From Paludibacteraceae bacterium (GTDB taxonomy: Bacteria; Bacteroidota; Bacteroidia; Bacteroidales; Paludibacteraceae), in the NCBI GenBank assembly GCA_029974315.1, contig JARKSE010000168.1, forward strand, positions 1-37,442: a DNA stretch of 37,442 nucleotides, written 5' to 3'. The notes beneath the pieces were generated by a model, which ran no database searches, was not told where the DNA came from, and was given only the letters and a program-made list of their open reading frames with translations. How positions within the stretch are numbered: the stretch's first letter is position 1; every line of letters starts with the position of its first letter. The position numbers were made by a program, and so were the translations under genes. Of this stretch, positions 5,655 to 11,634 are shown in pieces.

Positions 5655-6704
5655 CTATTTTGAAATCGACTTAATTGTACCAAAATCAGTAAATTCTACC
5701 TTTGTATAAACACCATCAAATAATAGTGCTGGCAAACAAGCCACCACTCCAAATTGAGGCATTGTAATTGTTTTTTCGGCTAAAACTTTTGTACCGTCAG
5801 CTACTACAACTTCTGCTGAACCCGGGACATTGTAGTAAGGGCCACACATTTTTTTTGAATTGATAATCAGTGCTGGATCTGTTACCATGCTCGGTTTCAC
5901 AGAAAGATAAACAGGACGACCTAATAAATTATCAGACTCAACTATACCAGCTACTGCCGACATACGAAAAACAACTTGATTGGAGAGTGCCTCGCGTGGT
6001 GTTACATAAAATTTACGAGAAACTGGTACAGCAATACGTTTACCTATAAATAATGCCATCAACTCAGCTTCTGTTTCGTCCAACTTTTGAAGCATCAGCG
6101 TAAGTGATACACCGTCTGGAAGTTCTTCATTATCACCTGATAACAAATTGGTACGACTTTCTCGAATATGATAAATTTGCTTGGCGGCCATTTCTGCCAT
6201 CTTCGGGATAGAACTGGAAACCAAAGCCTCTTCTCCCAATTGAGCAAAATCAAAGCGAATAACGGTATCTACAGCAACCGGTTCACTCTTTTTAGAGCGA
6301 TTTGGTTTTGTATGAGTACGTTGATTGATTGTTCGAATTACACCCTTACTATCTAATTCAACATTGAAAGCTGTAGTTTTTTTATTTATAGCAATATGAT
6401 AGCATTTTGTATTATCTGGTTCTGTGCGATAAAAAACCCGAACACCTTGCAATTGCCAATCGGTTTTAGATTCAGTAATAAAATCTGTCATTCCCAAAAA
6501 GCGTTCTGTATATTTATAAAAAGGGCCCTGTTTTTCAATAACTTGTACAACATCCGCTTGCAACACCAAAGTTGTAAGTGGCAATTTATACATAATTCCA
6601 TCAGAGCAAACATCGTCTTCCTGCACTAAGTTTACACTGGTTTGCGCAGACAGCATAGTGATAGAACTCCATAGAGCAACCCATATTATAACCTTTTTCT
6701 TCAT
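5655..6704 (-). CDS. DUF4831 family exported protein
   Basis: A 349-residue protein with an N-terminal signal peptide (MKKKVIIWVALWSSITMLSAQ, cleavage probable after the SA near 20). The following sequence (DGIMYKLPLTTLVLQADV) and overall length match my recollection of the Bacteroidales DUF4831 family, which has no established function. It is predicted to be periplasmic or surface exposed. It is first in the run leading into uvrA, only 2 nt before that start, which probably reflects shared transcription rather than a repair role. It faces nadA across a 172-nt divergent region. Confidence 0.75.
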   Translation of the reverse strand: MKKKVIIWVALWSSITMLSAQTSVNLVQEDDVCSDGIMYKLPLTTLVLQADVVQVIEKQGPFYKYTERFLGMTDFITESKTDWQLQGVRVFYRTEPDNTKCYHIAINKKTTAFNVELDSKGVIRTINQRTHTKPNRSKKSEPVAVDTVIRFDFAQLGEEALVSSSIPKMAEMAAKQIYHIRESRTNLLSGDNEELPDGVSLTLMLQKLDETEAELMALFIGKRIAVPVSRKFYVTPREALSNQVVFRMSAVAGIVESDNLLGRPVYLSVKPSMVTDPALIINSKKMCGPYYNVPGSAEVVVADGTKVLAEKTITMPQFGVVACLPALLFDGVYTKVEFTDFGTIKSISK

Positions 6705-7876: not shown

Positions 7877-8845
7877 TCAATAATGTTTGGTAAAACCATA
7901 TACATTATGAATATGCAAAATACCAATAATTGGCGCATTATCAACCTCTTTTTCCACAACGGCTAATGTCGTAATTTTATAGCGATCCATAATTTCCAAA
8001 GCATCATTTACCATTAAAGAAGCTGAAATACGCTTAAAACCATGAGTCATAAAGTCGGCCGCCACCAAATTTTGGAAATCACTATATTTTTGAGCTGCAC
8101 GACGAATATCACCATCAGTTATAATACCCGTAACTTTGCCTGATTTATCAGCAACCATTGTGATTCCAAGTCGCTTTAAACTTACTTCAGCTATCACATC
8201 TTTAAATGCAGTTGATTCGTTTACCATTGGCACCACATCTGTCATACAATCACGCACCTGAGTAAGCATACGGCGTCCTAATGCCCCTCCTGGATGATAC
8301 AACGCAAAATTTTCGGGTTTGAAATTGCGTTTTTCCATCAAGCAAACAGTGAGCGCATCGCCCATAACTAAAGCTGCCGTCGTTGAGGTTGTTGGTGCTA
8401 AGCCTATATTACACGCTTCACGTTGCACGCCAACATCTAATACATAATCGGCTTGTTTAGCCAAAGTTGAATTCACATCGCCTGTGATTGCTATCAATGG
8501 ACAAGCCATTTTTTTTACCGTTTGTACGACATGTAAAATCTCTTCCGACTCGCCGCTATTTGAAATTGCAATAACCACATCACCACGTGACACCACACCC
8601 AAATCGCCATGTAATGCCTCAGCAGCATTTATAAAAATAGCTTGTGTGCCTGTAGAAGCTAACGAAGCTGCAATTTTTTTACCAATGATACCTGTTTTAC
8701 CAATACCTGTAATTACAACCTTGCCTTTATGCGCATAAATAAGTTCAACAATATGATTGATCTCATCACCAATACGATTTGCAACTCGTTGAATTTCATC
8801 TATTTCGACTTGAAAAACTTCCTTGCTACGCGCTACAAAATCCAT
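7877..8845 (-). CDS. kdsD: KpsF/GutQ family D-arabinose-5-phosphate isomerase
   Basis: It interconverts ribulose-5-phosphate and arabinose-5-phosphate, the first committed step to Kdo of LPS. The 322 residues contain an N-terminal SIS domain (GIGKTGIIGKKIAASLAS, then ISNSGESEEIL) and two C-terminal CBS domains (from about residue 205, with GIITDGDIRR in the first). This three-part layout is that of KdsD. It follows kdsA with 3 nt between them, which strongly supports the Kdo role over the related GutQ or KpsF paralogues. A terminator lies just downstream. Kdo-8-phosphate phosphatase (kdsC) is not in the window. Confidence 0.94.
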   Translation of the reverse strand: MDFVARSKEVFQVEIDEIQRVANRIGDEINHIVELIYAHKGKVVITGIGKTGIIGKKIAASLASTGTQAIFINAAEALHGDLGVVSRGDVVIAISNSGESEEILHVVQTVKKMACPLIAITGDVNSTLAKQADYVLDVGVQREACNIGLAPTTSTTAALVMGDALTVCLMEKRNFKPENFALYHPGGALGRRMLTQVRDCMTDVVPMVNESTAFKDVIAEVSLKRLGITMVADKSGKVTGIITDGDIRRAAQKYSDFQNLVAADFMTHGFKRISASLMVNDALEIMDRYKITTLAVVEKEVDNAPIIGILHIHNVYGFTKHY

Positions 8846-8848
8846 ACG

Positions 8849-9694
8849 TTATAAATTTTTAGTAATAGTATCAATAGCTTTTGCACGTTCTAAAATTGGT
8901 TTTAACGTGCTTAAACGTAACTGATTAGCGGCATCGGAAAATGCTTTATCAGGATCAGGATGTACTTCAGCGAATATGGCATCAACACCAACAGCCAAAG
9001 CTGCATTGATTAAATATGGCGCCATATCGCGATTGCCACCTGTTATAGTACCATTTCCAGAAGGTTTTTGTACCGAATGCGTTGCATCAAATACCACAGG
9101 ATATCCAAATGTTCGCATTTCTACCAAGCCGGTCATATCAACCACCAAATTATTGTAACCAAAAGAAGAGCCACGTTCGCACAGCATCACGTTGTAGTTA
9201 CCTACCGACTCCATTTTTTGAACGACTTGTTTCATGTCCCAAGGCGCCATAAATTGACCTTTCTTGACGTTTACAATCTTACCTGTGCGACCAGCCGCCA
9301 ATAATAAGTCAGTTTGTCGTGATAGAAACGCAGGAATTTGTAGTGCATCAACCACTTCGGCCACAGAAGCACACTGCCAGCTTTCGTGTACGTCCGTAAT
9401 TAGCGGCAAATCAAGCTCGGTTTTAACCTTTTGTAAAATACGTAAACCTTCATCTATTCCAACGCCACGCGGAGAGTTCAATGATGTGCGATTTGCTTTA
9501 TCAAAGGAGGATTTGAATATCAAATTGATGTCTAAATCAAAACAAATTTGTTTTAGATTTTCAGCCACCTGCATTATCATACGCTCACTTTCGATGACAC
9601 ACGGACCAGCAATAAGCGTAAACGGACGTCCACTGCCTATTTCGAAACGATTTAATACTGAAACAGATTTAACTACTTTTGTTAAAAGCGCCAT
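8849..9694 (-). CDS. kdsA: 3-deoxy-8-phosphooctulonate synthase
   Basis: KdsA condenses arabinose-5-phosphate with phosphoenolpyruvate to give Kdo-8-phosphate. The 281-residue protein has IAGPCVIES (28-36), FKSSFDKANRTS, PAFLSRQTDLL and the C-terminal DATHSVQKP and AEVHPDPDKA blocks. Cys32 occupies the place of the metal-binding cysteine of the metal-dependent KdsA class, where metal-independent enzymes such as that of E. coli have Asn. The gene sits between the GH16-like gene (2 nt upstream) and kdsD (3 nt downstream) in one tight operon. Confidence 0.97.
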   Translation of the reverse strand: MALLTKVVKSVSVLNRFEIGSGRPFTLIAGPCVIESERMIMQVAENLKQICFDLDINLIFKSSFDKANRTSLNSPRGVGIDEGLRILQKVKTELDLPLITDVHESWQCASVAEVVDALQIPAFLSRQTDLLLAAGRTGKIVNVKKGQFMAPWDMKQVVQKMESVGNYNVMLCERGSSFGYNNLVVDMTGLVEMRTFGYPVVFDATHSVQKPSGNGTITGGNRDMAPYLINAALAVGVDAIFAEVHPDPDKAFSDAANQLRLSTLKPILERAKAIDTITKNL

Positions 9695-9696
9695 AA

Positions 9697-11034
9697 TTAA
9701 TCATTAGCACGATAAATCTCTATCCAGTCAACTAACATCGTACCTTCGCCACCTTTTTGTTTACTCGAAATGAACGAATTCAACATAGGGAAAAGTGGTT
9801 CAGTGGGAACACCTTCTGTTGTACGGAATACTTCCACATTGTTAACATACCAAATCAATTCTTTCGGTGTCCATTCTAAAGTGTAGATATAAAAATCACT
9901 AGTACGCAAGCCTTTTACTCTAGTAGAGGTGTATTTCTTTTCAAATTTAGTTGCCCAGTGTGTACCCACTTCAATATCTTTCCCATCGCATACACAAACA
10001 TTTACATGTGGTAATTGACGAGCGCCGGTCAACCAAAAAGCATGTGTTAAATCTTTACCCACAAAACGCATTTTTGCACGAAACAACCCACCTTGTTGAG
10101 AAATAGACTGCGTTCCATGTAACACATCAGACGTATATTCAAACTGACGATTAACAAAACCACGCGTTTTATCCCAAGCTAAAGCTAATTTACGTTCTTT
10201 GCGGGTGTGAATGTTCAATTCACCTGCATAAACACTCACATTATTGCCTTCGTTATTCGCTTGTTTCTCATTAGTAAATGAGTGATTACCAACTAATTTA
10301 TCATTAACATAGTTAAAACCACATTCCCAATTTGACGCATTCAACGTATTCCAATCAAAAGTATCAGAGAACGTTAATGTGTATTGACGCATGCGTGAAA
10401 ATTTAGCAGAATTGGTTTTTTCGAAGAATTTAATATCCTCATTTTTTGACAATTCCGCATAACGTTTTTCTTCAATAAACTCAGGTGTTTTTTCCCAACG
10501 TTTAGGATCTGCCCAAAAATCGTTTTCTTTTTTAAATTCAGGGGTTGATATCTTTTGACGCAACTCTTCATAATTTTTGATGATGTATGAATTATGAAAA
10601 CGCATGTAATTTTTATATTCTTTCGATTTTTCAAAATCACGTAAACGCTTTAAATCTGCAGACTTTTTAACTTCACTTTTTTTGCCTAAAAGTTCGTATT
10701 CTGGTGTAGCTTTAAAGGATAAATAATCTTTTAAAATTTGACTGTTAAGTGTTTCGTAGTACAACACAATGTTTTTATCGTTAGTTAAACGATTAAACTT
10801 GCGAGTGTCGTGATACTCTTTGGTATCTTTATATTTACGACTCATCAAGGTTTTTTTCTTTTCCTTGAAATCTGCTGATTTTACACGATGAAATAATTCG
10901 CGATATTCTGCCAATTCTTTCGATTGTTCTACACCTACATAACGTTTGTACTCAGCCATTAATGCGGCATGACGTGCCTCCATTTTAGCAGTACTCTGCA
11001 TGCGTCCTAAAATTCGTTGCCAAAAAAGATTCAT
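9697..11034 (-). CDS. GH16-like protein with N-terminal charged repeats, probably not catalytic
   Basis: A 445-residue protein without a signal peptide or membrane segment. Residues 38-218 are highly charged and built of diverged repeats: compare 71-104 (TKEYHDTRKFNRLTNDKNI...) with 137-167 (SKEYKNYMRFHNSYIIKNY...) and 183-218 (TPEFIEEKRYAELSKNEDI...). Residues 219-445 look like a GH16 laminarinase-type jelly roll (SDTFDWNTLNASNWE, AFWLTG, YTLEWTPKELIWYVNNVEV). The GH16 catalytic motif ExDxxE is absent: the place after FWL reads LPHVNVCV (341-348), and the alternative DIEVGT (353-358) also lacks both glutamates. The gene is first in the kdsA-kdsD operon, 2 nt from kdsA, so a cell-envelope role is plausible. 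A binding or structural function is inference; the substrate is unknown. Confidence 0.75.
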   Translation of the reverse strand: MNLFWQRILGRMQSTAKMEARHAALMAEYKRYVGVEQSKELAEYRELFHRVKSADFKEKKKTLMSRKYKDTKEYHDTRKFNRLTNDKNIVLYYETLNSQILKDYLSFKATPEYELLGKKSEVKKSADLKRLRDFEKSKEYKNYMRFHNSYIIKNYEELRQKISTPEFKKENDFWADPKRWEKTPEFIEEKRYAELSKNEDIKFFEKTNSAKFSRMRQYTLTFSDTFDWNTLNASNWECGFNYVNDKLVGNHSFTNEKQANNEGNNVSVYAGELNIHTRKERKLALAWDKTRGFVNRQFEYTSDVLHGTQSISQQGGLFRAKMRFVGKDLTHAFWLTGARQLPHVNVCVCDGKDIEVGTHWATKFEKKYTSTRVKGLRTSDFYIYTLEWTPKELIWYVNNVEVFRTTEGVPTEPLFPMLNSFISSKQKGGEGTMLVDWIEIYRAND

Positions 11035-11085: not shown

Positions 11086-11634
11086 TCATAATTTTTCCGC
11101 CTGCTCTGCTAACCATGCCGTACACTCCTCTGCTGATTGGCAAATATGCAAGCCGCTTTGACGAGCTTTGTAACCTAAACCTTCAGCCATCATACGATCA
11201 ATTTGTTGTAACAAGCCTGAAAAATAATTATCAGAATTGACCAAAATAGTCTGTTTGTCATGGTAACCCACCATACCCGATGCTAACACATCAAACAGCT
11301 CATCCAAAGTACCAAATCCACCTGCTAAAACCACAAAAACATCGGCGTACTCTTTCATCAATTCTTTGCGTTCACTCATGGTTCCTACTTGAAATAACTG
11401 CGTGGGCAAAGCACTTTTTCTTCCTTTTTCTACAATTAAATCGGGAACTACACCGATGATATCGCCATCTAACTCGTGCGTCGCTTCAGCCACCGCATCC
11501 ATCAACCCGCCAGTAGCACCGCCATATACCAATGTATGACCATTTTCTGCAATAAAACGCCCAATTGACCGTGCTTCTGTTTTAAAAGCATCACTTACAT
11601 GAGGGCTCGAAGCGCAAAATACACAAATATTCAT
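11086..11634 (-). CDS. LOG family (TIGR00730-type) Rossmann-fold protein
   Basis: A 182-residue protein of the family named after plant LONELY GUY, whose tested members release the base from nucleoside 5'-monophosphates (cytokinin riboside phosphoribohydrolase activity). The motifs are CVFCASSPHVSD near the N-terminus, VYGGATGGLMDAVA, the MSERKELMKEYAD block and AGGFGTLDE, the last being a variant of PGGxGTxxE with Ala in place of Pro. The bacterial substrate here is not known. A well-formed promoter with an overlapping palindrome lies just upstream. The GH16-kdsA-kdsD genes follow after 51 nt with no terminator visible between them, so read-through is possible. Confidence 0.9.
   Translation of the reverse strand: MNICVFCASSPHVSDAFKTEARSIGRFIAENGHTLVYGGATGGLMDAVAEATHELDGDIIGVVPDLIVEKGRKSALPTQLFQVGTMSERKELMKEYADVFVVLAGGFGTLDELFDVLASGMVGYHDKQTILVNSDNYFSGLLQQIDRMMAEGLGYKARQSGLHICQSAEECTAWLAEQAEKL

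Follow-up and report, generated by a model that had tools for sequence, protein, structure and literature searches.

A conserved, probably intracellular protein family of the Bacteroidales that joins helical repeats to a GH16 fold lacking the catalytic glutamate pair

Glycoside hydrolase family 16 (GH16) comprises a large number of secreted polysaccharide enzymes, for which an export signal is usual in bacteria, and the Bacteroidales are glycan specialists. Descendants of GH16 that lack catalysis are found among the invertebrate GNBP/betaGRP proteins, which bind glucans (PMC2375007, PMC6403176). We have analyzed a stretch of 37,442 nucleotides (the window) from a member of the Paludibacteraceae, in which a gene with an ATG start (9697..11034, minus strand) encodes a protein of 445 amino acid residues, composed of a helical-repeat region and a pseudo-GH16 domain. 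An earlier note on this DNA had placed the gene 2 nt from kdsA and at the head of a kdsA-kdsD operon. The spacing is correct, as the stop codon lies 2 nt before the ATG (at 9694) of kdsA (8849..9694, minus strand; Kdo-8-phosphate synthase; Pfam DAHP_synth_1, 7.8e-73), which is separated by 3 nt from a kdsD-like gene for a SIS+CBS arabinose-5-phosphate isomerase (7877..8845, minus strand; Pfam SIS, 5e-26; CBS, 1.6e-12). The position at the head of the operon is not clear, because a LOG-family (lysine-decarboxylase-like) gene on the same strand (11086..11634, minus strand; Pfam Lysine_decarbox, 3.9e-30) is located 51 nt upstream and is kept in most relatives with enough flanking sequence. Elsewhere in the window, near nadA, a gene (5655-6704) encodes a functionally uncharacterized DUF4831 protein that has a signal-peptide-like start and is conserved in L001.

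Structure prediction, proposed in the earlier note as a check of its claim that the C-terminal half is a GH16-like jelly-roll, led to an AlphaFold model (from 50 homologues) with a mean pLDDT of 94.4, in which short helices (residues 15-217) are followed by a beta jelly-roll (residues 218-443; 9706..10383, minus strand). The best PDB structures found by Foldseek were the GH16 laminarinases 4dfs (5.7e-17), 3azx and 4bow, with TM values by target of about 0.7, and a profile of the family matched 4dfs along the entire C-terminal domain (E 9.4e-20). Also, Pfam GH16 (PF00722) gave a weak match to residues 354-421 that was above threshold (25.1 bits versus the curated cut-off of 22). The fold claim is therefore borne out by Pfam, AlphaFold, Foldseek and the profile match alike.

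The domain had further been proposed to be a pseudoenzyme, with LPHVNVCV or DIEVGT as the degenerate catalytic strand and the ExDxxE glutamates absent in either case. Catalytic columns were fixed by aligning the family to real GH16s with EIDVFE and ELDVLE, and LPHVNVCV (residues 341-348; 9991..10014, minus strand) aligned with the GH16 motif xGEIDIxE. With C-G-E-I-D-I-M-E opposite L-P-H-V-N-V-C-V, the nucleophile glutamate corresponds to H343, the aspartate to N345 and the acid/base glutamate to V348. DIEVGT was rejected, since real GH16s (L124, L125 and 4dfs) place ExDxxE against PHVNVCV and DIEVGT lies downstream. In 4crq, a crystallographic E142S mutant, a serine is found at the column that is mostly lysine in the family and V348 in the window. 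None of the 91 Bacteroidales family members carries the catalytic glutamate pair; the nucleophile glutamate occurs in 14, the acid/base glutamate in 4 and the catalytic aspartate in 47 of them, and in 69 the acid/base column holds K, R or H. The residue preceding the nucleophile, usually G in GH16, is P in 86 of 90 members. Among GH16 relatives inspected outside the Bacteroidales, ExDxxE was intact in all 19, most of them with a signal-peptide-like start, and in a maximum-likelihood tree the pseudo-GH16s were all on one side of a branch with 96/95 support.

When the gene of the window was compared to that of its closest relative L001 (86% identity), a dN/dS of 0.073 was obtained for the whole gene, with 0.063 for the GH16-like half and 0.085 for the other half, which is comparable to the values for the neighbouring kdsD (0.078) and LOG (0.048) genes. 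A dN/dS of 0.07 indicates that the dead GH16 domain is under selection, and a relic or pseudogene was rejected on this ground. Together, the fold match, the loss of the pair in 91 of 91 members and purifying selection in both halves strongly support the pseudoenzyme reading, and the C-terminal domain has a GH16 fold in which every member has lost the catalytic glutamate pair.

The region N-terminal to this domain (residues 15-217) is alpha-helical in the model. The earlier note had counted three to four diverged units there; the repetition itself was confirmed and the number amounted to three. A profile search with a repeat HMM, one of the checks suggested in that note, located unit 1 at residues 38-105 (10720..10923; 59.9 bits), a truncated unit 2 at residues 102-143 (10606..10731; 28.0 bits, model positions 23-67) and unit 3 at residues 149-214 (10393..10590; 58.3 bits), all on the minus strand, so that two of the three copies are near-complete and one is truncated. 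A repeat HMM made from the distant member L056 alone gave 37.3 bits with the N-terminus of the window protein, compared to a maximum of 6.5 bits in 500 shuffles. The repeat is a unit of about 70 amino acid residues with five short helices, which in the region of unit 1 are modelled at residues 39-51, 54-65, 72-84, 87-96 and 99-108, and it occurs in 1-9 copies per protein in the family. The model of a 900-residue relative (pLDDT 79, moderate quality) was used for helix counts only. The unit had no match in Pfam and no credible match among PDB sequences (best E 0.069). Repeats were present in 37 of 149 Bacteroidales genomes, essentially only joined to the pseudo-GH16 domain, and in other proteins of these 149 genomes none was found except for one marginal case (G115:C46, E = 5e-4).

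At the very N-terminus, the hydrophobic and basic segment MNLFWQRILGRMQS (residues 1-14; 10993..11034, minus strand), modelled as a short helix at residues 3-8, is by its composition a possible membrane-attaching amphipathic helix. Hydrophobic and basic residues prevail among the first 13-20 positions of family members, and across 86 of them this segment contains 192 basic versus 26 acidic residues, with a mean net charge of +1.9. The earlier note had seen no signal peptide, and by eye no signal-peptide-like start was evident in the window protein or in the relatives inspected; the protein is probably intracellular. Such a conserved, normally single-copy and probably intracellular protein with a GH16 fold and no means of cutting is easily annotated as a glycoside hydrolase, and that label misleads.

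Matches to the family profile were obtained in 80 of 295 Bacteroidales genomes, the weakest being ordinary GH16s, which corresponds to about a quarter of the genomes. Within the Paludibacteraceae, the gene occurs in 78 of the 120 genomes and in 22 of the 33 genera, and normally there is one gene per genome. A search for full-length relatives outside the Bacteroidales in 297 genomes of the phylum returned the window itself only, the rest being ordinary GH16 domains, and plasmid records gave GH16 domains only, mostly from rhizobia, with 26-29% identity among the matches listed. As judged from these searches, the family is specific to the Bacteroidales. A description of such a family was not found in the open-access literature, and the family is seemingly undescribed.

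The gene order gyrB-LOG-pseudo-GH16 is common in the Paludibacteraceae, and the window itself has no gyrB there. Downstream neighbours in this family include, besides kdsA, a DAHP-synthase-like gene, NeuB-NeuA, Stealth with glycosyltransferases, and an O-antigen ligase (Wzy_C); in some members the downstream site holds unrelated genes. Among related genera (L153, L175, L191 and others) this site is unusually variable, as if it were a hot spot for gene exchange.

Our preferred reading, which we hold tentatively and short of even confidence, is that of a cytosolic and perhaps inner-membrane-attached adaptor or sensor that is neither catalytic nor specific for Kdo. On this view the protein would not leave the cytosol, where its short hydrophobic and basic N-terminus might tether it to the inner face of the inner membrane. 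The row of repeats would serve as a docking surface or spacer whose length can be adjusted, and a ligand would be bound by the groove of the dead GH16 domain, where the glutamate of the acid/base position has most often given way to a basic residue. A nascent or lipid-linked intermediate of a surface glycan would be the likeliest ligand in the Paludibacteraceae, where sugar-acid, capsule or LPS genes often follow, as judged from neighbourhood counts that are uncorrected for shared ancestry. The protein would thus act as adaptor or sensor, with no role as an enzyme and no specific membership in the Kdo pathway. The insect GNBP/betaGRP proteins offer an analogy that makes non-catalytic carbohydrate binding plausible, and outside the lineage of the window the protein might possibly serve as a signalling scaffold. 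A bolder version, which we regard as doubtful, makes the protein a hitherto undescribed intracellular GH16-derived lectin or sensor across the Bacteroidales, whose row of new repeats, variable in copy number, would position the dead groove on the cytosolic side of the inner membrane to read nascent or lipid-linked surface glycans and adjust their synthesis.

The alternative that survives best, and that we consider possible but somewhat unlikely, is that the dead domain is solely a scaffold for protein-protein interactions in signalling, by a two-component system and the phosphoprotein SiaC, and has no glycan ligand. It counts against our preferred reading that outside the Paludibacteraceae most neighbours are non-glycan genes, namely histidine kinase-response regulator(-SiaC), fmt, atpD and lepA; in some other bacterial families the gene sits before fmt. 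A histidine kinase-response regulator directly precedes the gene, in some cases with SiaC in between, in several Bacteroidales families (L080, L090, L092, L098, L101, L109, L111, L114, L115, L120 and L121). SiaC was present in 25 of 37 carriers versus 37 of 112 other genomes (149 genomes; odds ratio 4.2, p = 0.0004, with phylogeny and genome size ignored). Furthermore, conservation is lacking at the polar catalytic positions, which would be expected if no sugar were bound. However, SiaC and these kinases are missing beside the gene in the Paludibacteraceae, no SiaC match was obtained in the window's own genome or in G041, and the neighbours of the gene are varied. In favour of our preferred reading, in three loci of other bacterial families (L064, L075 and L118) a gene of the GT9 heptosyltransferase family lies upstream. 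Also, at a locus of a distant family (L100:2588-6390), genes for SIS, a PfkB kinase and a nucleotidyltransferase come after the pseudo-GH16 gene, an arrangement that resembles a heptose-nucleotide synthesis cluster.

Rather improbable is a dedicated part in the synthesis of Kdo or the LPS core, in which the protein would bind Kdo-containing or other LPS intermediates and work with KdsA and KdsD. Such a part would fit the 2 nt that separate the gene from kdsA in the window, the kdsA that adjoins it on the same strand in 29 of the 78 Paludibacteraceae carriers and the SIS-only sugar-phosphate isomerase gene downstream in 13 of 70 loci inspected from this family. The occurrence of the two genes argues against it. 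In the Paludibacteraceae, 55 genomes have both the gene and kdsA, 23 the gene only and 32 kdsA only, which amounts to an absence of co-occurrence (odds ratio 0.75, p = 0.67); incompleteness of the MAGs affects single absences, and several of the carriers without detectable kdsA are 95-99% complete. Similarly, in the 149 Bacteroidales genomes kdsA was found in 33 of 37 carriers versus 96 of 112 others, so that the two occur independently (odds ratio 1.4, p = 0.78). Two types of kdsA are present in the 120 Paludibacteraceae genomes, with 57-100% versus 44-51% identity to the kdsA of the window; adjacency was observed in 29 of 43 genomes having the type with at least 57% identity and in 0 of 44 having the more distant type. 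In the order-wide sample, kdsA was beside the pseudo-GH16 gene nowhere except in the Paludibacteraceae. The tie to Kdo and LPS that the earlier note had suggested, together with its proposal to survey the Bacteroidales for the gene beside kdsA, thus led to a divided outcome: the arrangement recurs in part of the Paludibacteraceae carriers and fails as a general rule. A Kdo-specific role as a general rule was rejected on the basis of co-occurrence and synteny, and the kdsA neighbourhood is a local, lineage-specific habit of this family.

Two further variations concern genes with a known or possible part in Kdo synthesis. The SIS-only isomerase, which replaces kdsA directly downstream in three genera (L002:7379-7999, L205, L209 and others), has about 206 amino acid residues, lacks CBS domains and shows about 40% identity to the SIS region of the KdsD-like protein of the window; it may be the single-domain arabinose-5-phosphate isomerase type known from Bacteroides fragilis. 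In L050 (4021-5391), kdsA carries a C-terminal HAD-type phosphatase domain that is probably KdsC-like, as in a KdsA-KdsC fusion (Pfam DAHP_synth_1 + Hydrolase), and similarly long kdsA frames (427-470 residues) are present in several genera of the Paludibacteraceae.

Finally, a hydrolase with relocated catalytic groups might find room in the fully retained GH16 fold and in the members that keep the aspartate or one carboxylate, but it is very improbable given that the glutamate pair is found in no member, that the catalytic positions hold K/R/H, D/N/S and H/Q/E/M with no conserved replacement, and that P takes the place of G before the nucleophile almost throughout.

Should the protein indeed bind glycans, it would illustrate the conversion of a degrading enzyme into an internal sensor or adaptor. 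When compared to GH16 laminarinases and endo-beta-1,3-glucanases (4dfs, 3azx, 4bow, 4crq), the family has the same beta jelly-roll over the whole C-terminal domain; it differs from them by the lack of the catalytic E-x-D-x-x-E, by P instead of G before the nucleophile, by an insertion of its own (AWDxxxGF), by a shorter loop ahead of the catalytic strand, and by fused helical repeats in a protein without signal peptide. With alpha-solenoid repeat families, the N-terminal region has in common the tandem short helices and a copy number that varies between orthologues, here from 1 to 9; unlike them, this repeat is without relatives in Pfam or credible ones in the PDB and is confined to the pseudo-GH16 family. 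By analogy, the nearest known functional parallel is provided by the insect GNBP/betaGRP proteins, which make dead GH16s a kind already known: they are GH16-derived, have lost at least one catalytic residue, are non-hydrolytic, act by binding and possess an extra N-terminal region (PMC2375007, PMC6403176). Those proteins are immune receptors of animals whose N-terminal glucan-binding region spans some 100 residues, whereas the pseudo-GH16 protein is bacterial and carries all-helical repeats at that place.
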